A stretch of DNA of 64,000 nt from Spirochaetales bacterium (GTDB lineage Bacteria; Spirochaetota; Spirochaetia; JABMQR01), in the NCBI GenBank assembly GCA_018399255.1, contig JAGYPA010000007.1:1-64000 (forward strand), in the 5' to 3' direction. Under the pieces are notes generated by a model. It was not told where the DNA came from. It ran no database searches and saw nothing but the letters and a program-made list of their open reading frames with translations. Below, in pieces: positions 27,887 through 62,323 of this stretch (position 1 is its first letter; the number at the start of each line of letters is the position of its first letter). The position numbers and the translations under genes are program-made.

Positions 27887-29158
27887 GTGTAACCGCAATC
27901 GTTGGAGCTCAATGGGGCGATGAGGGTAAAGGCCGACTGGTGGACTACCTGGCCCAGAACGCCGATATGGTTATCCGCTACCAGGGAGGGGACAATGCCG
28001 GTCACACGGTCATTAACGAGCATGGAAAATTTGCCCTGCACATTCTTCCTTCCGGAATATTCAACCCCGAAACAATTTGTCTGGTAGGAGCCGGCACCGT
28101 TGTCAATTTCAACACCATGGAAAAGGAGCTGGCCGAAGTTGCCGCCACCGGCTTTACTGTAAGCAATCTCTATGTTGACAAACGGGCTCACTTAATCATG
28201 CCCTTCCATTGTCTTCTGGACGGAGCCGAAGAGGCCGGACGAAAAAAAGGCTGGGAAGTGGGTACCACCAAACGGGGAATTGGCCCGGTCTATTCGGACA
28301 AAGCTTCCCGGATCGGCATCCGTGCGGTAGATATACTCGACCCCGAACGCCTTACTGTGCGGCTTGAAATGCTGCTGCCCCGCAAGAACCGCGAACTCGC
28401 CTATTTCGGACTCCCCGAGGTAACAGTCGAGGAAATGCTGGAACTCTGCGCATCGTGGCGCGATAAATTCGGAGATATTATCATAGACTCTGTGCCGCTC
28501 GTCAGGGACGCCGTCCTTTCAGGTAAACGGATTGTGATGGAAGGCCAGCTGGGAATCATGCGCGATCTGGACTGGGGCATCTATCCCTACACCACAAGCT
28601 CAAGTCCGACAGCTGGAGGCGTCAGTTCCGGTGCCGGCATATCACCGCGCAGAATTGATACCATTATCGGCATTGTAAAAGCCTACTCCACCTCGGTCGG
28701 CGGCGGTCCATTCACGGTTGAGCTGTTCGATGAAACGGGTGACAAGCTCCGATCTATCGGCGGAGAATACGGAGCCACTACCGGAAGACCCAGACTGCTG
28801 CGGCTGGTTTGACGGTGTTGCCGCCGCTTATTCCTGCTGGATAAACGGTTTTACCGATATTGCCGTAACAAAGCTCGATGTACTCGACACCTTTGAAACC
28901 CTGAAAATCTGTACCGGCTACCGGGTGAATGGTGAGATTATAGATTACGTTCCCGAAACGGCTCTCCAGGAGATTGCTGAACCGGTCTATGAAGAATGGG
29001 CAGGCTGGATGAGCGATACCACAAAAGTCAGAAACTGGGATGTTCTCCCGGATGCTGCAAAAGCCTATCTGTCCCGTATTGAAGAGCTTACCGGCGCCCC
29101 GATTTCCTTCGTATCAGTCGGACCGGAGAGGGATCAGATTATTGTGAAGCAGATCTAA
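27883..29158 (+). pseudogene. purA: Adenylosuccinate synthetase, interrupted by a one-base frameshift
   Basis: It starts with [18 protein letters not shown], the GTP-binding P-loop of PurA, and runs normally to [12 protein letters not shown], then reads LLRLV and stops at 28812. The normal continuation ([51 protein letters not shown]) is present in the next frame to 29158. The family motif TGRPRRCGWFD is restored if one base of CTGC at 28795-28798 is removed (for example T28796). The full product would be about 424 residues and would convert IMP plus aspartate to adenylosuccinate using GTP. No other break is visible, so a sequence error is a real possibility; otherwise the enzyme is inactive, since the truncation removes the C-terminal substrate-binding part. 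Confidence 0.9.
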
Positions 29159-29218
29159 CCGAGCTGCTGAACAATCCCGGCTTACTTGGCAGACGAATAT
29201 CGCAGGGAGTTTTCTATT

Positions 29219-30631
29219 ATGACGGATATTTTCTATCAGCATGATACCTATATCTCACCTTTTACCTGGCGTTACGGCAGCAAAAAGATGCGGTGGACTT
29301 GGTCAGAAGCTCACAAACGGCTGCTTTTACGAAAGTTCTGGATAGCTCTTGCCAGAGCTGAGATGCAGGCAGGCATTGTAACTGAAGAACAGGTAGCTGA
29401 TCTGGAAAAATCGGCTGATTCCATCGATATCGCCCGGGCAGCGGAAATTGAATCTGAAATTCACCATGACTTGATGGCTGAAATTAAAACATTTGCCGAA
29501 CAGTGTCCTCTGGGAGGCAGTATTATCCATCTGGGTGCAACCAGTATGGATGCCCTGGATAATATGGATGCAGTCAGACTGAAAGAGGCGATGGATATCA
29601 TCATCTCGGGAACAATCGAACTGGCAGCAGATATTGCAGAAAAAATTCGCGAGTATGCCCACACTCCCTGTATGGCCTTTACCCACATTCAGCCGGCCGA
29701 GCCGACAACTATCGGATATCGGCTTGCGCAGTACGGACAGGACCTGGCTATGGATCTTGAAGAGCTGTACCGGGTTCGGGCCTCCATTCGCGGAAAAGGA
29801 TTAAAAGGAGCCGTCGGATCCAGCTCATCCTATACTGAACTTCTCCGGGGCACAGAGATGAAGCCGGCTGACCTCGAGTCCCTGGTTATGGATGAGCTAG
29901 GGCTCAAGTCATTCACGGCAGCAACCCAGGTCTACCCGCGCAAGCAGGATCTGGTTATTCTCAATGCTCTTTCCAACCTTGGCGCTACCCTTTACAAGAT
30001 GGCATTTGACATACGGCTGATGCAGTCTCCCCCCTTCGGGGAAATGAGCGAACCCTTCGGTGCAAAGCAGGTGGGATCATCGGCTATGCCCTTCAAACGT
30101 AATCCGATACGTTCGGAAAAGGTAAATTCGCTGGCACGCCTGTTATCAACCTTTCCGACAACTGCCTGGCATAATGCTGCTCATACCCTGCTGGAACGTA
30201 CTCTGGATGATTCTGCAAACAGGCGTGAACTTCTGCCGACAGCGTTTCTGGCAGCAGACGAAATTTTACGGACCATGAATACAATTGCTTCCGGGCTGCG
30301 GTTCAATCCCACCGCTATAAATAGAAATCTTGATGTATACGGGGTTTTTTCGGCAACTGAACGGTTACTGATGGAACTTGGGCGTCAGGGAGCAGACCGG
30401 CAGGAGATGCATGAGGTTATTCGCGGACATTCGCTGGCTGCCTGGGATGCGCTCCAGAATGGAAAAGAAAACCCCCTGCGGGAGCTGCTTTCCCGAGATC
30501 CGGCTGTTACTGCCTACATCCCGGAAAATGCTGTACGTACGCTTCTTGATGCGGCTGACTATACCGGCGATGCGTCTGAACGGGCAATTGCGGTTGCCGA
30601 AGAGATGGAATCCCTGCTCACCAGTCGGTAA
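29219..30631 (+). CDS. purB: Adenylosuccinate lyase
   Basis: 470 residues from ATG 29219, with GGGAG about 9 nt upstream; the open frame extends to a TTG at 29186 without a better signal. It belongs to the fumarase/aspartase superfamily: HDLMAEIKTFAEQCP, HLGATSMDALDNMDA, AFTHIQPAEPTTIGYRLAQY and the mobile signature loop GSSAMPFKRNPIRSEKVNSL (Ser nucleophile region, about residue 286). It acts twice in purine synthesis, including the step after PurA. The gene follows the broken purA by 60 nt. Confidence 0.92.
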   Translation: MTDIFYQHDTYISPFTWRYGSKKMRWTWSEAHKRLLLRKFWIALARAEMQAGIVTEEQVADLEKSADSIDIARAAEIESEIHHDLMAEIKTFAEQCPLGGSIIHLGATSMDALDNMDAVRLKEAMDIIISGTIELAADIAEKIREYAHTPCMAFTHIQPAEPTTIGYRLAQYGQDLAMDLEELYRVRASIRGKGLKGAVGSSSSYTELLRGTEMKPADLESLVMDELGLKSFTAATQVYPRKQDLVILNALSNLGATLYKMAFDIRLMQSPPFGEMSEPFGAKQVGSSAMPFKRNPIRSEKVNSLARLLSTFPTTAWHNAAHTLLERTLDDSANRRELLPTAFLAADEILRTMNTIASGLRFNPTAINRNLDVYGVFSATERLLMELGRQGADRQEMHEVIRGHSLAAWDALQNGKENPLRELLSRDPAVTAYIPENAVRTLLDAADYTGDASERAIAVAEEMESLLTSR

Positions 30632-30665
30632 TTTCATTACTGGAAAGTAATTTTATTACTGGAAA
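30628..30665. repeat. Tandem 19-bp repeat after purB
   Basis: Two adjacent 19-bp copies (30628-30646 and 30647-30665) differing at one base. Each contains the inverted repeat GTAAT-N3-ATTAC. The first copy overlaps the purB stop codon. It may be an operator pair for the downstream lipoprotein gene or part of a weak terminator. Confidence 0.45.
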
Positions 30666-30760: not shown

Positions 30761-31519
30761 ATGAGAAAGGTATTGATTCTGCTTACAATGGCAATCCTCT
30801 TGCCTCTGCTTCTGTTGTCATGTGAAACAAGTCAACTGACAAAAGGCGCAAAGCCGTCTACCGAATCAGACGATACTGCTATAGTTGAGGATGTAGAATC
30901 TCTGCCTGCACATGATGATAGACCGAAAGACCTTCTCTCTTCCGACACTGCCGATAGAGCCGTTATTAATACCGAAGCCGAACAGGAGAACTCCGAAGAA
31001 GCCCGTTTAGCCGAAGAGGCCCGGGCTAAGGCCGAGGAAGAAGCTCGTCTTGCCGAAGAAGCTCGTCTTGCCGAAGAAGCTCGTCTTGCCGAAGAAGCTC
31101 GTCTGGCCGAAGAAGCTCGTCTGGCCGAAGAAGCTCGTCTGGCCGAAGAAGCTCGTCTGGCCGAAGAAGCTCGTTTAGCCGAAGAAGCCCGTTTAGCCGA
31201 AGAAGCCCGTCTAGCCGAGGAAGCTCGTTTAGCTGAAGAAGCTCGTTTAGCTGAAGAAGCTCGCGCTAAGGCTGCCGAAGAGGCTCGTCTAGCCGAAGAA
31301 GCCCGTTTAGCCGAAGAAGCCCGTCTGGCCGAAGAGGCTCGTTTAGCCGAAGAAGCCCGTTTAGCCGAAGAAGCTCGTTTTGCTGAAGAAGCTCGGCCAA
31401 GGCCGAGGAAGAAGCTCGTCTTGCCGAAGAAGCTCGTCTTGCCGAAGAAGCTCGTCTTGCCGAAGAAGCCCGTCTTGCCGAAGAAGCCCGGGCTAAGGCC
31501 GAGGAAGAAGCTCGTTTAG
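30761..31519 (+). CDS. Lipoprotein with long EARLAEEA helical repeat (N-terminal part of a giant repeat/ankyrin protein)
   Basis: ATG 30761 follows CGGAGGAG. A lipoprotein signal peptide (residues 1-20, lipobox LLSC) predicts lipid anchoring at Cys21. It is followed by an acidic, Ser/Asp-rich linker (residues 22-78) and then the hexapeptide repeat A-R-L-A-E-E. The frame slips at about 31396, where CGGCCAAGG replaces the CGGGCCAAGG seen elsewhere, and then reads [13 protein letters not shown] to a stop at 31519. Restoring that G and six later indels joins this reading to the ankyrin frame, so this is probably the first part of one protein of about 1,740 residues ending at 35982. Whether the frame is truly broken or mis-sequenced is uncertain. 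Confidence 0.75.
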
Positions 31520-33270
31520 CCGAAGAAGCCCGTTTAGCCGAAGAGGCCCGTTTAGCCGAAGAAGCCCGTTTAGCCGAAGAAGCCCGTTTAGCCGAAGAAG
31601 CTCTCGTCTTGCCGAAGAAGCTCGTCTTGCCGAAGAAGCTCGTCTTGCCGAAGAGGCTCGTCTTGCCGAAGAAGCTCAAGTTAAGGCTGAAGAAGCTCCG
31701 TCTTGCCGAAGAAGCTCGGGTTAAGGCTGAAGAAGCTCGTCTTGCCGAAGAAGCTCGGGTTAAGGCTGAAGAAGCCCGTCTGGCCGAAGAAGCTCGTCTT
31801 GCTGAAGAAGCTCGCCAAGGCCGAGGAAGAAGCTCGTCTTGCCGAAGAAGCTCGTCTTGCCGAAGAAGCTCGTCTTGCCGAAGAAGCTCTGTCTGCCGAA
31901 GAGGCTCGTCTTGCCGAAGAAGCTCGTCTGGCCGAAGAAGCTCTCGTCTGGCTGAAGAAGCCCGTCTGGCCGAAGAAGCTCGTCTTGCTGAAGAAGCTCG
32001 GGCTAAGGCCGAGGAAGAAGCTCGTCTTGCCGAAGAAGCTCGTCTTGCCGAAGAAGCTCGTCTTGCCGGAAGAAGCTCGTCTGGCTGAAGAGGCTCGGCT
32101 CCGGCCGAAGAAGCTCGTCTTGCCGAAGAAGCCCGTCTTGCCGAAGAAGCCCGGGCTAAGGCCGAGGAAGAAGCTCGTTTAGCCGAAGAGGCCCGTTTAG
32201 CCGAAGAAGCCCGCTTAGCCGAAGAAGCCCGTTTAGCCGAAGAAGCCCGTTTAGCTGAAGAAGCCCGTTTAGCTGAAGAAGCTCGTCTTGCCGAAGAAGC
32301 TCGTCTTGCCGAAGAAGCTCGTCTTGCCGAAGAAGCTCGTCTTGCCGAAGAGGCCCGTTTAGCTGAAGAAGCCCGTTTAGCTGAAGAAGCCCGTTTAGCT
32401 GAAGAAGCTCGTTTAGCTGAAGAAGCCCGTTTAGCTGAAGAAGCTCGTTTAGCTGAAGAAGCTCGGGTTAAGGCTGAAGAAGCACGTCTAGCCGAAGAAG
32501 CTCGTCTTGCCGAAGAAGCTCGTCTTGCCGAAGAAGCCCGTCTTGCCGAAGAAGCCCGGGCTAAGGCCGAGGAAGAAGCTCGTTTAGCCGAAGAGGCCCG
32601 TTTAGCTGAGGAAGCTCGTTTAGCTGAGGAAGCTCGTTTAGCTGAGGAAGCTCGTTTAGCTGAGGAAGCTCGTTTAGCTGAGGAAGCCCGTTTAGCTGAA
32701 GAAGCCCGTTTAGCTGAAGAAGCTCGGGTTAAGGCTGAAGAAGCCCGTCTTGCCGAAGAAGCCCGTCTTGCCGAAGAAGCTCGTCTTGCCGAAGAAGCTC
32801 GTCTTGCCGAAGAAGCTCGTCTTGCCGAAGAAGCTCGTCTTGCCGAAGAAGCTCGGGTTAAGGCTGAAGAAGCCCGTCTTGCCGAAGAAGCCCGTTTAGC
32901 TGAAGAAGCACGTCTAGCCGAAGAAGCACGTCTAGCCGAAGAAGCCCGTCTTGCCGAAGAAGCCCGTTTAGCTGAAGAAGCCCGTCTTGCCGAAGAAGCA
33001 CGTCTTGCCGAAGAAGCACGTCTAGCCGAAGAAGCACGTCTAGCCGAAGAAGCCCGTTTAGCTGAAGAAGCTCGTTTAGCTGAAGAAGCTCGTTTAGCTG
33101 AAGAAGCTCGTTTAGCTGAAGAAGCTCGGGCTAAGGCTGAAGAAGCCCGGGCTAAGGCCGAGGAAGAAGCTCGGGTTAAGGCTGAAGAAGCTCGTTTAGC
33201 CGAAGAAGCTCGTCTGGCCGAAGAGGCCCGTTTAGCCGAAGAAGCTCGGGCCAAAGCTGCCGAGGAAGCA
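30994..33270 (+). repeat. Coding tandem repeat, 18-bp unit (ARLAEE), about 120 copies
   Basis: About 2.3 kb of an 18-bp unit of the type GCTCGTCTTGCCGAAGAA, with synonymous variants (CGT TTA GCC, CGT CTG GCC) and an interspersed longer unit encoding ARAKAEEE or ARVKAEE. The encoded peptide has the i/i+3/i+4 Arg-Glu pattern of single alpha-helix (SAH) or coiled-coil segments. Reading-frame slips are confined to 31396-32096 (seven events); the parts on either side are clean. The block sequence of synonymous variants (runs of CTT then runs of TTA) suggests expansion by duplication of blocks. Confidence 0.9.
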
Positions 33271-33426
33271 CCTCCTCAAATCATCTACACAAATATTTTT
33301 GACAGCATAAAAGACGGCAAAGTCTCCATAACTGAAAGACTCATTCTTGACGGAGCAAATCCCGACAAACCAGATGCACAGGGAATTACCCCCCTCTACA
33401 CAGCCGCATCAACTGGCAATGAACAA

Positions 33427-35982
33427 ATGGTGCAGCTTCTCCTTAAGCACGGAGCTGACCCGTCAGTAAAAACCAGTGAAGGTCTTCTTCCCATTCATGC
33501 AGCTGCTGCCAACTCATCCTACTTACTCGCCTCCCAGCTTGCGGGTAAGGGCTCCCTGCTGTTCATAACCGATCCCGAGGGGGAAAGCACCCTGCAGAAA
33601 GCCCTGGCCTCCGGCCCGAAGGCATTAAGTGACCTGCTAGGAGAAGACCTGGTAAACGCCACTGATACGCAGGGCAGCACCCCCATACATTACACCGCAG
33701 AAAACGGACAACTGGAGAACCTGGAACAGCTCATTGCTAACGGAGCCGACATCAACATCAGAAACCGGAAAAATCAACTGCCGCTGGATCTTGCCCTCAG
33801 CTTTACCTCAAGTGATAAGCACGTAAAAATCGCAGAAAGATTAATCCGCACCTACTCCGACATTCCAGCAGATCAGCAATTTTACTACGCATATCAAGCT
33901 CTATCCAACACCGGAGCAGAATCCCGATTTGAGCAGGGATTCACCGTCCTACATTATGCGGCACTGCATAATCATCCGGCTCTTCTAGAACTGTTTATCA
34001 GAAAAGGCGCACGACTCGATGCACGAGATGAAACTAATCAAGCCCCGATTCATGTCTCAATAACCCACGGCAATTACAATATCGCCAAACAGCTTATCCA
34101 GGCTGGCGCAGATGCAGATGCCCGAAACGGATCCGGCAGCACACCGCTGCATCTTGCCGTACAGTCAGAAAACAGTTTGGAAATAATCAGCTTCCTTCTG
34201 ACAAATGGGGCAGACATAGACAGCCTTAACCTCAATGGTGACTCACCCCTCCATCTTGCAGCTGAACCAGGCACAGACCCGAAAACAGTTTCCTTACTGC
34301 TGAGCAGCGGTGCCAACCCCGACAGCCGCGACCGGATCGGCAACACACCGATCATGCTGGCCTTGGCCAAGAATAATCGACCAGCGGTCGAGAACCTGCT
34401 GCTCTACCAGGCAGACCTCTATGCCCGAAACTATAACGAAATAACCCCCATGATACGCGCCCTGATGAAAGGTCTACCCGTCGTAGAATGGTTCTACAAA
34501 CCATCGATGAATGAGACCATAGATGTGACAGGAAACACTCCTCTGCATATTGCTGTTATGAACGGAGCAGATATCGCAGTAGTACAATTTATTATCAAGG
34601 CAGGAGCGGCACCGAACCGTAAAAACCTCCTTGGAGATACGGCTCTGCATACAGCCGTGGCAGCAAACTTTGCTGATGCGGCAGTAATGCTGATTACTTA
34701 TGGGGCAGACCCCTTTCTGCCTAACAATCAGGGAAAATCCCCAACAGTACTTGCCTTTGAAAAGGGGACAACTGCTGCATCATGGATCATCACAACTGAA
34801 AATCTGGAGCACAAGGATTCAAACGGCAATACCCCCCTGCACATGGCTGCCGCCTGGGACTTTCCGGAAATCACAAGCTATCTGATCAACCAGGGAGCCG
34901 ACACCAATCAGCATAACCGTGAAGGCCTGACACCCCTTCATTCAGCCGTAAAGAACAACAGTATAAAAGTCTGCCAAATATTAACCAATAACGGAGCAGA
35001 AATTGATTCACGCGATTCTTACGGCAACACTCCCCTGCATACAGCCATAAACTGGGAAGCCTCTCAGACCGCTAAATTTCTTCTCCTCAGAGGAGCAGAT
35101 GTTCGGTTACGGAACCTGAGCGGCAATACCCCCCTGCACACAGCCGTTCTGCAACGTGACGAAGAAAGCGTCAAGATGCTGGCAGAGTTCGGAGCAATGC
35201 TGGAAGCCCGCGATAACATGGGAATGACTCCGCTCATCCTGGCGGCTCGAAGAAACTATTGGGAAATATCCGAACTGCTCATCTCCCTTGGTGCCGATTA
35301 CAATACCCGTGACAATCGCGGTAACACGCCCCTCCATGAAGCAGTCAGAAACCGAAACAAGCAGATATGTCAGCTGCTGATTAAACAGGGAGCTGCTGTT
35401 TTTGCAGAAAACCGATATGGAGACACCCCCATAGGCCTGGCTTTTCAGGCCGGTCTTGAAGTAGCAGACTGGTTTCTGGGAACCCCATCCATTTCTGCCA
35501 GAGATGATAAAGGCAACACCCTGCTTCATACGGCAATTCAGCAAAATGCCTCCGAACAGATTATCTCCCTGCTTATACAAAAACAGGTTGACATAGACAG
35601 CAGGAACAACCTGATCAACACACCGCTCCATACCGCATTTATCAGCCTGAATAAAAAAGCAGTCCTGATATTAGTCGAAGCCGGGGCAGATATCTTCTCC
35701 CTCAATGGAGAAGGCAGCTCCCCATTATCGATGGCAATAGCAATGGGAACCGAGGCTCTCTCCTGGATCATAACTGCAGAAAACATGACTTCTGCTGATT
35801 CCTACGGCAATTCCCCCCTTCACATAGCCGCCGCATCCGGAAGCCTGGAGGCGATATCCTACCTGCTTTCGCTCGGGATTCCCGCAGAAATACGGAATCT
35901 TGCCGGCGATACTCCAGTCGATGCAGCAGAGAAACAGGGACATAAAGAAGCCGCCGTACTGCTGCAGCTTTCAGACCAGTAG
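33427..35982 (+). CDS. Ankyrin-repeat protein (C-terminal part of the giant lipoprotein)
   Basis: 851 residues from the first Met, but the frame is open far upstream: ankyrin sequence already begins near 33283 (FDSIKDGKVSITERLILDGA) and the repeat helix feeds into it in the same frame, so ATG 33427 is not the real start. I count about 26 ankyrin repeats of ~33 residues, recognised by GNTPLHTA-type turns and ...LLxxGADxxxR helices. Several repeats are degenerate (NEITPMIRA, GKSPTVLA). Ankyrin arrays bind proteins. The expected topology is a lipid anchor, a long helical stalk and a large ankyrin head, probably in the periplasm or outside the cell. It is followed convergently by the VTT-domain gene 3 nt away. 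Confidence 0.88.
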   Translation: MVQLLLKHGADPSVKTSEGLLPIHAAAANSSYLLASQLAGKGSLLFITDPEGESTLQKALASGPKALSDLLGEDLVNATDTQGSTPIHYTAENGQLENLEQLIANGADINIRNRKNQLPLDLALSFTSSDKHVKIAERLIRTYSDIPADQQFYYAYQALSNTGAESRFEQGFTVLHYAALHNHPALLELFIRKGARLDARDETNQAPIHVSITHGNYNIAKQLIQAGADADARNGSGSTPLHLAVQSENSLEIISFLLTNGADIDSLNLNGDSPLHLAAEPGTDPKTVSLLLSSGANPDSRDRIGNTPIMLALAKNNRPAVENLLLYQADLYARNYNEITPMIRALMKGLPVVEWFYKPSMNETIDVTGNTPLHIAVMNGADIAVVQFIIKAGAAPNRKNLLGDTALHTAVAANFADAAVMLITYGADPFLPNNQGKSPTVLAFEKGTTAASWIITTENLEHKDSNGNTPLHMAAAWDFPEITSYLINQGADTNQHNREGLTPLHSAVKNNSIKVCQILTNNGAEIDSRDSYGNTPLHTAINWEASQTAKFLLLRGADVRLRNLSGNTPLHTAVLQRDEESVKMLAEFGAMLEARDNMGMTPLILAARRNYWEISELLISLGADYNTRDNRGNTPLHEAVRNRNKQICQLLIKQGAAVFAENRYGDTPIGLAFQAGLEVADWFLGTPSISARDDKGNTLLHTAIQQNASEQIISLLIQKQVDIDSRNNLINTPLHTAFISLNKKAVLILVEAGADIFSLNGEGSSPLSMAIAMGTEALSWIITAENMTSADSYGNSPLHIAAASGSLEAISYLLSLGIPAEIRNLAGDTPVDAAEKQGHKEAAVLLQLSDQ

Positions 35983-57380: not shown

Positions 57381-58367
57381 TTACTGTGCGTTCGCTTTTC
57401 CCGGTGACGGAGTCAGGTTCAGTTCCCAGTTGTCACTCCCGTCGGGAAGACGGCCGGCGCTGTCCGCATGTCCGGACCAGGATCGAATATCGACTATCTG
57501 GCCGTTCCGCCGCAGGATGGCTGTATCGTAAGAACCCAGTCCAAAGCCCTCGGCAGGCGGGATCACCACCATCCGGCTCGCTGCGGATTCACTTCGAGGA
57601 GTGCCGCTGCCGTCAGTGAAAACCGTCAGGTAACCGCCGGCTGGAACAGTAACATCTCTGGGGATTACGATTACGGTATCTTTTCCGATATCCTCGAGCG
57701 TCCAGGCACCGGAAGAAAATGCAAGCTCCGTACTTCCTGTATTATAGAGCTCGATAAAATCATCACCTCTCGACCGTATTTCATTAATCACCAGCCGATA
57801 ATCTGTTCTCGCCGCAGGTTCTTTAACGTTCTTCGTTCCCGGTGTCGGCTGCAGCAGTGTTGAAAATTCGGCTGGACGGTCCGGAAGCCGTCCGATACTG
57901 TTTACATCCGTTTCCCAGGAAATCATATCTACAACAATTCCATTATAGTACAACATCACCGAATCGATTTGATTGAGCCCGAATGCTATATCTACCAATG
58001 CCGTCTCCGGTATTGCTTCATTATTCAGTACATCGGCCGCTTTATCCAGAGTAAAGGGGCAGACAAGCAGATACCCGCCGGCCGGTATGAATATCCCCGC
58101 CGGCAGACTGAGAGCACGGGCCCCCTCCTGATACTCCTCTCCGTTATCATCGAGAACCCAGCCTTCTCCCAGTATTATCGGATGGTTCATGATATTATGC
58201 AGCTCGACAAATTCATATTCCCCGGTAGAAGCTGCTTCATTGATGACAACCATCCGGGGTTCTGCCGGCACCGGCTCAAGACCGGCAACTGCTGCAGTTA
58301 CGCAGGAAACCATCGATCCTGCTGCCAGGATGAGAAGAATCCCGGTCAGTACGCTATTTTTCTTCAT
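57381..58367 (-). CDS. Lipoprotein with two lamin-tail domains
   Basis: 328 residues. A lipoprotein signal (MKKNSVLTGILLILAAGSMVSC, Cys22) is followed by two lamin-tail domains (LTD): residues about 40-180, beginning VVINEAASTGEYEFVELHN, and about 195-325, beginning LVINEIRSRGDDFIELYN. Each closes with an IGRLPD/AGRLPDGS turn and a TPSPGKAN-like end. LTDs are Ig-like modules of surface and nuclease proteins. It lies 3 nt after the CotH/LTD gene and is the last of a three-gene export cluster. The function is unknown; surface adhesion or a cell-wall role is speculative. Confidence 0.82.
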   Translation of the reverse strand: MKKNSVLTGILLILAAGSMVSCVTAAVAGLEPVPAEPRMVVINEAASTGEYEFVELHNIMNHPIILGEGWVLDDNGEEYQEGARALSLPAGIFIPAGGYLLVCPFTLDKAADVLNNEAIPETALVDIAFGLNQIDSVMLYYNGIVVDMISWETDVNSIGRLPDRPAEFSTLLQPTPGTKNVKEPAARTDYRLVINEIRSRGDDFIELYNTGSTELAFSSGAWTLEDIGKDTVIVIPRDVTVPAGGYLTVFTDGSGTPRSESAASRMVVIPPAEGFGLGSYDTAILRRNGQIVDIRSWSGHADSAGRLPDGSDNWELNLTPSPGKANAQ

Positions 58368-58370
58368 ATG

Positions 58371-60998
58371 CTACTCCAATCTCACGTTGTCGATAAACAC
58401 TTCCTGCCCCTCAGCCAGTTGCCCTACCCTGAACTGCAGGCGCCCGTTAACGAGTTCAGGCCCGGTGTAGGATACCGGTATTCGTATCTTTTTCCAGACT
58501 GATGTCGGCCTGAATGTGTAATTGAACACTTCGGGTCCGGTATCCACTGCAAAGAGGATAACCATGATCTCTTTGCTCTGTGATGAGATGCCGGCGGTTT
58601 TCACGTCAAACGAAAAGACAAACTCCTCACGCTCACCTACATAGAGGGCATCCTGAACAAAAGCGACAGAATCCCAGAATTGAGTTTTCTGCTCAAGGAT
58701 TTTCAGGTATCCGCCTTTGCTGCCGGTATCCAGGGTAATGATTTTCTGCTCGACGCTATCCTGGCTCCAGGCGAGATTCCATTTTTCTGCACCGTTCTCA
58801 AAATCTCCGCCGGGAATTCTGTCGGCAGAAGAGGGAACAAATCCCGCTTTCAGTTCTTCCAGATACTTCGTTACATAGCCTGGGCGCAGGCGGGCAAACT
58901 CCCGCAGGATTTCAACCTCCCGCTGCCAGCGCTCTTCGCTGAGGTTCCAATACCAGCCGGACTCCGGGTCATCCCCCTGCCAGCGTCCTATGTGTCGCGC
59001 AATTTCATCCTCAATCCAGACTGCATGTCTTTCCACAGCCTGCAGGAGATTCTCCGTCGTGAATACCGTTTCCAGAAGCTCTTCATAGCGGAAGACCATC
59101 CGGTTAAAATATACCTCCTGCTTCATCAGGTTCTTGAAAAGACTGCTGAATAAATCGTTATTGAATTCCTCCCCCAGCAGATAGGTGAAGCTGTTGAAGT
59201 CCGGGGTTCCCGAAACTCTCTCCAGACTTCCCGTCCAATACCCTGTCGTGTCAAACCCGGCATCGGTATCATACAGAATCCAGCGCCATTTCACCTCGTC
59301 ATCCACCGAGCGCCAGAATTTAGCATTGCTCCACGGCCAGTCGGTATTGTTATAAAAGCTCTGGAATATAAAGTAGTCGATCATGCTGTCGATATCGAGC
59401 AGGTCCTCCGCTTTCTGAATAATCGGTTCGATGCCGGATGGGAGGCTTTGCGCCAGAGCCAGCAGCTCATTGCTGCCGGCAGCATCACCTTCGTTTATCT
59501 GAAATGATGAGCTGTAGGCCCCCTCAACAACATCAACCGCATCCGGATCGATGCCGTGATTATCTTCGAGAAAATATTCGTTTATTTTTTCCCGGATATT
59601 GAGAATACCCCAGTACTGGCCGTTGAGAAAAACCACCGAAGGCTGAAAATCCTGCTTGTCCACATCATATCCGGTAGCGAGTCCGGCCATCATTCCATCC
59701 CGGAAGAGGGTTCTTTCTGCATCCCCCCCGGAGCTGCGCAGGACAATCGAATAAAAATCGGGAACATCCCCGGCAGACCCTTCGAAAAAGAAGTGGTTGG
59801 GAATTCGCTCTTCTGATGCCGGCTCTTTGGCATAGAGAGCAAAGGATTTAAGCGGAAACCCCCGGGATGAGCTGCCGTAGAGCCGCAGCAAGTAGATGTC
59901 CCGCAGGTCGGGCTGTTCGCGGGAAGTATTCCGGAAAAATTCCATATGTGCCATCCGAAACCATTTTTCCCGGAAATTAGGTGCTTCGGTATCGTCACCA
60001 ATTGCATGGATTCCATATTCTGTCCCCCAGAGATCATCCGGATCCATCGTTATCGAAAAGACCGGAAGTTCTGTCTCTTCCCCTATAAAATAGGTGCGCA
60101 CGGCAATGGGACCGGCTGCCCCGGTTGGTGAGTAGAAGCGCGCCTTGACTGCTCCGGTCCGCCCTATCTCCCGCGGGGTATCAAATAGCGTGCCTGACAC
60201 ATTGGTTGGATAGATCCAGGTTCGTTCATTCACAGGGCGATCATTGGCGTTAAATTCCATCCCGTCATTTATGGTATACCGGATTTCCCAACCGGGATAG
60301 TCGAAAGCATTGGTAAAATCAAGCGCAGCAGACTCAGCAAAAAACCCTGAATCCTCAGCAAACTCGGGAACCGGCAGGCGCACATCATTCGGCAGTCCGG
60401 GTGTTGGGTTATCAGCTATTCTGACGGCTGACGGAAATTCCGGATCACGGATGAGAGAGATATTCCGTACCGGAGGAGCTGCCTTGTCCGGTACGGCGGG
60501 TTCCGGCAGAACAAAGCGGTCAGAAATGACTCCTTCAGCATTCTTCAGGACAATTGATGCGGTATTCTCCGGGATTTCGGCAAAAATTCGAATACTCTTT
60601 ACCGATAGCGTGGACCCGGTGGGGACAAACATAATGACGGGATAGTCCCCCGGCCGAATGCTGAAGGCAGGGAATCGGGGCAGTTCCTGCTGCGTCCCAT
60701 CCTTCAGGAAAAATACCAGCTTCCAGCCTTCGATATCTACCGCTTTCTCACTGGCTGCCGCAAGTTCCAGCCATGCGGGCAGAGTGTGATCATCGGCTTC
60801 CAGCAAGGAATCATTTTTCAGCATAACTTCATTGATCCGTACCGGTCCAGGCAGGGCAGCAGCGAGCTCTTCATCAGAAAAGCGCTCACCATACACTGCG
60901 GGATCGGGCAGGGTTTCACATCCTGAGACTGATACTATCAGAACAAGGACTGCAAGAGCTTTTTTCAGGAACTTTACGAAACAAACAGCTTTCTGCAT
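58371..60998 (-). CDS. CotH-kinase and lamin-tail-domain lipoprotein
   Basis: 875 residues from ATG 60998 (AGGCAGG upstream); a TTG at 61016 opens the frame earlier. A lipoprotein signal ends at SGC. Residues about 45-170 are an LTD (VRINEVMLKNDSLLEADDHTLPAWLEL). The middle is a CotH-like kinase domain (LRLYGSSSRGFPLKSFALYA, FYSIVLRSSGGDAERTLFRD, PSVVFLNGQYWGILNIREKINEYF, FKLADN-type helix with DSMIDYFIFQSFYNNTDW and the RWILYDTDAGF box). The last ~150 residues form a carbohydrate-binding-like beta-sandwich (GGDFENGAEKWNL, FVFSFDVKTAG). CotH domains phosphorylate proteins in spore coats; here it is extracytoplasmic and probably surface-associated. Confidence 0.88.
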   Translation of the reverse strand: MQKAVCFVKFLKKALAVLVLIVSVSGCETLPDPAVYGERFSDEELAAALPGPVRINEVMLKNDSLLEADDHTLPAWLELAAASEKAVDIEGWKLVFFLKDGTQQELPRFPAFSIRPGDYPVIMFVPTGSTLSVKSIRIFAEIPENTASIVLKNAEGVISDRFVLPEPAVPDKAAPPVRNISLIRDPEFPSAVRIADNPTPGLPNDVRLPVPEFAEDSGFFAESAALDFTNAFDYPGWEIRYTINDGMEFNANDRPVNERTWIYPTNVSGTLFDTPREIGRTGAVKARFYSPTGAAGPIAVRTYFIGEETELPVFSITMDPDDLWGTEYGIHAIGDDTEAPNFREKWFRMAHMEFFRNTSREQPDLRDIYLLRLYGSSSRGFPLKSFALYAKEPASEERIPNHFFFEGSAGDVPDFYSIVLRSSGGDAERTLFRDGMMAGLATGYDVDKQDFQPSVVFLNGQYWGILNIREKINEYFLEDNHGIDPDAVDVVEGAYSSSFQINEGDAAGSNELLALAQSLPSGIEPIIQKAEDLLDIDSMIDYFIFQSFYNNTDWPWSNAKFWRSVDDEVKWRWILYDTDAGFDTTGYWTGSLERVSGTPDFNSFTYLLGEEFNNDLFSSLFKNLMKQEVYFNRMVFRYEELLETVFTTENLLQAVERHAVWIEDEIARHIGRWQGDDPESGWYWNLSEERWQREVEILREFARLRPGYVTKYLEELKAGFVPSSADRIPGGDFENGAEKWNLAWSQDSVEQKIITLDTGSKGGYLKILEQKTQFWDSVAFVQDALYVGEREEFVFSFDVKTAGISSQSKEIMVILFAVDTGPEVFNYTFRPTSVWKKIRIPVSYTGPELVNGRLQFRVGQLAEGQEVFIDNVRLE

Positions 60999-61085
60999 AT
61001 CAACCTGCCTTGGCAACTTTTTTATTTCGGGACATAATTTTCAGTATCTGGAACATTGTGCAGCTGCCTCCCTCCACGATGCTTT

Positions 61086-62036
61086 CTACTTCCGGTTCGG
61101 CTTGCCCGGAGTCAGAAATGTCTTCATATACCAGTTTTCACTTCCGTCAGGATACCGCCCGGCACTTACTACGTGCTCTGCCCAGCTGAACGAATCTGCT
61201 ATCAGATTGTTGTACCGCAGAAACACGGTATCACTGCTTCCCAGACCAAACCTGTTTCCGGCTGACGAGGCCACGGAATTTCTGCCGGCGGAAAAGGGGA
61301 GCCGCAGAACATCGGGATAGATGACGAGCAGGCCGCCGGGAGGAATCACGGTTCCTTCCGGTAAAAAAACGGTATCTTTCTTTTGGGAGTCATCGATTCT
61401 CCATTCCTCTCTGCCGACCGTAATTGAACGGGAGGTGATGTTGATAATTTCTACATAATCGAGGCCTCTGGAGCATACTTCGTTCAGGAGCAGGGGAGAC
61501 TCTCCCTGATAACGGGCTTCAGCTTTGTTCTGTGCCCCCGGTGTCGGAATCAGCATGGTGCTGACTGCTTCAGAACCGTCCGGGATTCTGCCGATTGTAT
61601 TTACTGCGGTAGACCAGGTAACGAAATCGACCAGGCTGCCATTATGGAAGAGACTAATTTCATCTACTGAACCGATCCCGAAAGAACGGAAAGCCAGTGC
61701 CGTATCCGGGATATCCGTGGGAACAGCGGCCGCCATCCCGCTCGTCTTATAGGGGGCAATCAAGAGATATCCTCCGGCTGGAATAACGGTCCCGGCTGGA
61801 ATCTGTATCATTGGATCATTGTCCATCCGGCTCTCCTTGCGGTCGGCCAGCTCCCATTCGGGTCCCAGGACAAGATCTGCAGTAGTTCTATTGTAGAGTT
61901 CGATAAAGTCGAAATCCCCGGTCGAGGCAACTTCGTTTATGACAATATCCCCCGGGCGGGCACTCTCAGCAGCAGAAACCCTCACGGCTGCCAGTAAAAG
62001 CAGAACAACAATTATTCGATAGAAAATTTTCATCAT
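61086..62036 (-). CDS. Secreted protein with two lamin-tail domains
   Basis: 316 residues from ATG 62036 (adjacent ATG 62033 and GTG 62045 are alternatives; no clear Shine-Dalgarno sequence). A Sec signal peptide without lipobox (residues 1-25, IIVVLLLLAAVRVSAAES) is followed by two LTDs, starting IVINEVASTGDFDFIELYN and LLLNEVCSRGLDYVEIIN, with matching IGRIPDGS and AGRYPDGS turns. It is a clear paralogue of the lipoprotein at 57381-58367 and first of the LTD/CotH/LTD trio. Confidence 0.82.
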   Translation of the reverse strand: MMKIFYRIIVVLLLLAAVRVSAAESARPGDIVINEVASTGDFDFIELYNRTTADLVLGPEWELADRKESRMDNDPMIQIPAGTVIPAGGYLLIAPYKTSGMAAAVPTDIPDTALAFRSFGIGSVDEISLFHNGSLVDFVTWSTAVNTIGRIPDGSEAVSTMLIPTPGAQNKAEARYQGESPLLLNEVCSRGLDYVEIINITSRSITVGREEWRIDDSQKKDTVFLPEGTVIPPGGLLVIYPDVLRLPFSAGRNSVASSAGNRFGLGSSDTVFLRYNNLIADSFSWAEHVVSAGRYPDGSENWYMKTFLTPGKPNRK

Positions 62037-62323
62037 CCGCACCACACTTTATTCAATATCGGTATACATCAATATCGACAATATCGTCCTCAATCAATAC
62101 AGGCACAACCATTCAGCAAGTCTGACCGTTCAGGAAATATTTACACCATAGTAACATCAACAATGAGTAATGAAAAGGGAAATTGTAATCTGTTGCCCCC
62201 ATCTAATGCCCCCTTCTCCCGTTTTGTATGGTATGATAAAGACAGTACTCAGGCGGGTACTGCCTTGCGATGGTTATTGCCCTATGGGGGCGTTGCCTTA
62301 CAGAGACCATTCTGGAGGATACT
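62037..62323. other. Intergenic region / pyruvate kinase leader
   Basis: 287 bp. Near the left end are three CAATATCG copies (about 62055-62090). Closer to pyk an inverted repeat GCCCCCAT (62195-62202) / ATGGGGGC (62284-62291) encloses about 80 nt containing a second one, AGTAC / GTACT. No convincing -35/-10 pair was found. Confidence 0.4.

Follow-up and report, generated by a model that had tools for sequence, protein, structure and literature searches.

A probable single gene for a lipid-anchored ankyrin solenoid on an expanded tether in a Spirochaetales bacterium

Does a stretch of Spirochaetales DNA that spells out a lipoprotein start, a long charged repeat and a large set of ankyrin repeats, in a frame that is interrupted as assembled, belong to one gene? 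The window analysed here is the whole stretch of 64,000 nucleotides at the start of contig JAGYPA010000007.1, and the genome it comes from (G000) is a draft of 246 contigs. All parts of the lipoprotein-repeat-ankyrin gene were found at positions 30761 to 35982 on the plus strand (Table 1), which bears out the layout proposed in the initial annotation: a lipobox, an acidic linker, an ARLAEE-type repeat and then ankyrins. The open reading frame that carries the lipobox is 30761–31519 as assembled. TRF placed the array at 30993–33248, with an 18-bp period and about 120 copies, and by DNA length the stretch from the lipobox Cys to the ankyrins is about 818 residues. When the best frame path (909 residues to position 33500) is joined to the remaining ankyrin part, the full protein comes to ~1,735 residues, close to the 1,740 or so first claimed. 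We hold with moderate confidence that this is a single gene for a lipid-anchored ankyrin solenoid on an expanded tether. Where purB ends, shortly before the gene, window positions 30628–30665 hold a 19-bp direct duplication.

Table 1. Features of the ankyrin lipoprotein locus, in window coordinates.
Feature	Position	Strand	Evidence
purB (adenylosuccinate lyase), upstream neighbour and synteny marker	29186..30631	+	Pfam Lyase_1/ADSL_C
Lipoprotein signal peptide with lipobox LLSC, Cys21 at 30821-30823	30761..30823	+	sequence
Ser/Thr-rich acidic linker, about 56 residues	30824..30992	+	sequence
18-bp tandem array coding for about 750 residues of (EARLAE)n interspersed with AKAE/VKAE; a candidate single alpha-helix	30993..33258	+	
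Array segment holding every frame break: seven shifts and, in addition, a compensating pair	31394..32102	+	frame-path calculation
27 ankyrin repeats, about 900 residues	33274..35979	+	Pfam Ank, AlphaFold helix pairs, orthologues
Stop codon TAG	35980..35982	+	sequence

Those relatives of G000 that carry names are Spirochaetia metagenome-assembled genomes. In G003, from a sister genus in the same family, an intact ORF of 1,654 residues follows purB; its lipobox is joined to the same head by a linker of 733 residues. By eye, the lipobox region of G000 can be aligned with MRKFFGILITAVLLSLFLFSC in G003 and MRKIFGVLVTAVVLSVFLVSC in G002, each in the corresponding position behind purB. Two contig ends share the G002 gene, each breaking off inside the linker, with purB adjoining the lipobox end. 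In G001 (same genus, 87% identity) the contig opens within the EARLAE repeat, which leads in frame into the ankyrins; that genome yielded neither a purB nor a lipobox end. Stop-to-stop frames are intact in G005 (1,029 residues) and G031 (1,020), where the linker measures about 85–90 residues (the lipobox position of G005 was read by eye), and gene order with purB is conserved in G003, G005, G031 and L055. The EARLAE form itself occurs in two genomes only, G000 and G001, the latter keeping just its last ~26 residues. Judged by these sequences, the lipoprotein and the ankyrins are shown to be one gene in relatives. Because G003 has both in one intact ORF and G001 has repeat and ankyrins in frame, it is excluded that the two parts are invariably encoded apart, and the single-gene reading with which the initial annotation began has survived the search of related genomes that it called for.

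The head belongs to a much wider family. Profile A1, built from nine orthologues, gave long collinear matches at E ≤ 1e-60 in 79 of the 297 Spirochaetia genomes sampled; across the phylum-wide sample its matches came from genomes of the same class only. G000 scored 1511.9 bits over profile positions 40–938, its own row being part of the profile. An independent single-sequence search returned long matches at 31–87% identity, and ankyrin matches outside the spirochaetes were mostly non-collinear. Among the named carriers are Treponema putidum, T. saccharophilum and T. ruminis, whose ankyrin lipoproteins share the collinear head, a lipobox in most cases and a family-specific insert. These three orthologues are 30–31% identical to G000 and have about 5–12 residues between Cys and ankyrins, compared with about 800 in G000. 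Literature searches turned up no described lipoprotein-helix-ankyrin protein and nothing on TP0835 together with ankyrin. The layout, which the initial annotation knew from no described protein, is not isolated: there is an apparently uncharacterised, class-wide ankyrin lipoprotein family, of which the G000 gene is a long-tether variant. A second exported lipoprotein-like gene is present elsewhere in the genome (L161:1-3753, G000:C14), with a lipobox, about 200 acidic residues, ankyrins and C-terminal rhodanese domains.

Most family members have a Cys-to-ankyrin distance of about 5–20 residues. This short linker is common, not strictly defining, and is exceeded in G000, G003 and the f3 members. 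Linkers at the purA-purB locus form a series of about 30, then 85–90, then 730–820 residues. The tree unites the long-tether genomes with f3 and L055 in one supported clade, with purA-purB synteny wherever it is visible. L055 has purA, purB and the ankyrin gene in this order, and its linker is short. With short linkers also the rule in the family, growth of the tether is derived; these comparisons show an expansion, which we read as lineage-specific and as having taken place inside a short-linker family.

The G000 tether has the sequence pattern of a single alpha-helix (SAH), that is, salt bridges with no hydrophobic stripe. Glu (33%), Ala (34%), Arg (16%) and Leu (14%) dominate the right half of the array, from which Pro and Gly are absent. 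The array has 0.52 favourable i+3/i+4 pairs per residue and 0.00 same-charge pairs. Because 18 residues make five turns, the Leu residues fall at 60, 180 and 300 degrees and so occupy three faces spaced by 120 degrees, which makes no coiled-coil stripe. The hydrophobic moment of the array at 100 degrees was 0.034–0.068, compared with 0.245 in a coiled-coil control, and a coiled-coil stalk is disfavoured in the absence of a hydrophobic stripe. An AlphaFold model covering 32380–35979 placed helices at residues 2–153 and 178–290 of the modelled stretch (152 and 113 residues), with pLDDT of about 40–77. The composition, together with this low-confidence model, makes the array a strong and plausible candidate for a single alpha-helix. 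The structure prediction that the initial annotation suggested thus gave helices in the array at low confidence and an ankyrin head mostly at pLDDT of about 90. A phmmer search of the array repeat against the PDB at E ≤ 0.01 gave 0 matches. Array-like repeats at E ≤ 1e-9 were present in three genomes besides G000 among 393 from the phylum; ankyrins were absent from the one array-like protein inspected and from a G020 protein with a transmembrane segment and an OmpA-like domain. That protein (L162:2310-3392, G020:C25) is unrelated; in it a KAEEAR repeat separates a hydrophobic segment from a C-terminus that looks OmpA-like by eye, apparently another use of a charged helical spacer.

How far such a tether would reach was calculated with textbook polymer estimates. 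A 752-residue helix would have a contour of 113 nm and an rms reach of 45–71 nm for assumed persistence lengths of 10–30 nm, and a 733-residue disordered chain of the G003 type would reach a broadly similar distance, about 28–40 nm. The repeat, which the initial annotation considered as a possible helix on the order of 100 nm long, is a strong single-helix candidate, but a rigid rod of that length is unsupported because a single helix bends; it would be a semi-flexible tether with a mean reach of about 45–70 nm. Nor is there support for a helix being essential to the stalk, because the sister-genus spacer is of similar length and contains 17.7% Pro. With 25.5% Glu as well, the Pro/Glu-rich G003 linker cannot be one helix. 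The tethers are chemically opposite, Pro/Glu-rich in G002 and G003 and helical Glu/Ala/Arg/Leu in G000.

Given opposite chemistries at similar length, and the parallels with TolA/TonB spacers and the Pal linker, we take the tether to be a device for reach, in which one secondary structure would do as well as another. TolA and TonB domain II spacers range from helix-rich to Pro-rich forms, and they too are long, low-complexity envelope spacers built as a charged helix or a Pro-rich chain (PMC12204202). The G000 protein differs from them in having no TM helix, motor box or TolA/TonB C-terminal domain and, in their place, a lipobox signal peptide and an ankyrin head. Membership of the TolA/TonB force transducers was rejected on these grounds, as the N-terminus is a lipobox signal peptide and the C-terminal part is, in Pfam, essentially ankyrin. 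In Pal, the length of the disordered N-terminus serves as a spacer; it is likewise a lipoprotein spacer, but its linker is far shorter and its head binds peptidoglycan (PMC12826056). Myosin SAH domains are the same kind of charged helix, without a hydrophobic stripe and with dense i+3/i+4 salt bridges (PMC5378345, PMC4183817). In myosins, SAHs only rarely exceed 80 residues and reach about 200 at most (PMC5378345), whereas the G000 array has about 750 residues, with nearly twice as many E as R+K. A helix continuous over that length would rank with the longest single alpha-helices known. We put forward only tentatively, and with some doubt, the stronger proposal that the array is a continuous helix of ~750 residues (~110 nm contour) and that sister genera independently evolved, at the same gene, tethers of similarly great length but opposite secondary structure because reach is under selection.

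The head was modelled as 27 helix pairs, mostly with pLDDT of about 90, beside the ~26 ankyrin repeats counted at first. It includes an extra, family-specific helix behind the sixth repeat, and four of its repeats are variants with a W motif (EWFY, SWII, DWFL and SWII), and the orthologues are collinear with it end to end. Compared with G001, dN was 0.067 and dS 0.50 (dN/dS about 0.13), values that show purifying selection. Above cut-off, Pfam matched the C-terminal part with essentially nothing but ankyrin models, head matches in the PDB were ankyrin proteins in general, and Foldseek with the whole model gave ankyrin-repeat proteins only among the matches listed, with low TM-scores. Among curated functional families (NCBIfam), the head was above no cut-off. 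A Legionella Dot/Icm ankyrin effector (NCBIfam AnkY, AnkH, AnkG etc.) was rejected, since the best score was 289.8 bits against a cut-off of 600 and reflected the shared ankyrin consensus only. By default, a modelled solenoid of 27 ankyrin repeats would be expected to bind protein.

On which side of the membrane would the head work? The orthologues L154, L156 and L067 have, judged by eye, apparent plain signal peptides without a lipobox Cys, and because some orthologues seem to be exported in this way we favour the periplasmic side as more likely than the outside. Surface lipoproteins of Borrelia and Bacteroidetes often have disordered or acidic N-terminal tethers. It is conceivable by analogy that the product of the same gene is shown on the cell surface, its acidic tether clearing the polysaccharide so that the head can bind cells or particles, and the estimated reach of about 45–70 nm is long for a periplasm. 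We nevertheless regard surface display as rather unlikely: most relatives carry the same conserved head on 5–20 residue linkers, export of some relatives apparently without lipid fits a periplasm better, and no dedicated export system was seen beside the gene. Further along the window (57381–62045, minus strand) is a gene for an 881 aa CotH-kinase-domain protein between two exported Lamin-Tail-Domain proteins.

The purA/purB context of the gene (f1) gave no functional clue. In five Treponema loci (L059, L063, L065, L069 and L075), the gene immediately upstream, in the same orientation, is of the Fur/PerR family; it is preceded by rubrerythrin in L065, and in L061 desulfoferrodoxin is upstream of the ankyrin lipoprotein gene. 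We know of no long tether in AnkB of P. aeruginosa or in the Leptospira Ank of ank-katE. These are likewise exported or periplasm-acting ankyrin proteins, partly with PerR-type neighbours, and Leptospira perR adjoins ank-katE by locus number (PMC7567364). Among the near neighbours of the G000 gene examined, there was no catalase gene partner of the AnkB or Ank-KatE type. Gene order in Treponema and the Leptospira analogy offer a weak lead only towards a protective role in oxidative stress, and it is unlikely that the head protects against such stress in the periplasm as AnkB and the ank-katE operon do, because the arrangement occurs in few Treponema lineages, probably mostly through one inheritance, and is absent from the f1/f3 locus.

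We now return to the frame breaks of G000. The best frame path needs no frame change in the left 400 bp (30993–31393) or the right 1,150 bp (32103–33258) of the array, and the ankyrin frame is open from the right half of the array through to the stop. If breaks were evenly spread over the array, the chance of all of them falling in 31394–32102 would be 3e-5 to 3e-4. In the clean parts, 71 EARLAE units are encoded by 18 distinct 18-mers whose differences are synonymous only, a figure biased towards synonymous change because EARLAE units alone were counted. The sole other variant in the EARLAE register there is one unit with an L to F change, beside the AKAE/VKAE spacers. In the right half, the coding frame is free of stops and its hexapeptide entropy is 3.49 bits, compared with 33–34 stops and 6.5 bits in the other two plus-strand frames. 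One antisense frame of the right half is likewise stop-free and of low entropy, as expected of a repeat, and a 662-aa antisense ORF (31266–33254, minus) was rejected as a gene for being a by-product of the stop-free repeat. Upstream, purA is frameshifted at window positions 28785–28790 relative to the intact G003 homologue, which suggests indel errors in the G000 assembly; twelve genes compared between G000 and G001 had no frameshift like it.

The clustering, the pattern of the clean units, the purifying selection on the ankyrins and the purA frameshift together make assembly error the most likely cause of the breaks, as inferred from the assembled sequence. The length of the array in the assembly may itself be wrong. 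Taken further, the array could be mostly a product of assembly, over-expanded or stitched, with a real tether that is far shorter. The G001 and G002 contigs do break within their linkers, and 18-bp repeats are beyond the resolution of short reads, but 18 distinct unit types are present and the independent G003 assembly has its 733-residue linker in one clean ORF, so we think this improbable. Genuine breaks in a decaying gene, reduced to a 252-residue lipoprotein stub and an ankyrin part that is untranslated or internally started, are very unlikely, because the breaks, though present in the sequence as given and of a kind that slippage within an 18-bp array could produce, are limited to about 31% of the array while the right half and the ankyrins are fully open, the ankyrin part has the low dN/dS given above, and nearby purA has the same kind of frameshift, as assembly errors would give. 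Programmed frameshifting was rejected, as the shifts are too many and all clustered in one zone.

The preferred reading is a single gene whose product is anchored by lipid and carries its ankyrin solenoid on an expanded tether. The signal peptide would direct lipidation of Cys21, and a tether of roughly 800 residues would join that residue to the 27-repeat head, whose binding partners are most likely one or several proteins of the cell envelope, with the periplasm a more probable site than the outside. Growth of the tandem repeat would have lengthened the tether and let the head work further from its membrane, with reach as the property presumably selected.

These comparisons bring to light a conserved, apparently uncharacterised family of spirochaete envelope proteins, with Treponema among its carriers. 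On one conserved head, the family offers a natural series of tethers of about 5–20, 30, 85–90 and 730–820 residues. That series makes it testable whether reach, not fold, is selected in lipoprotein linkers.
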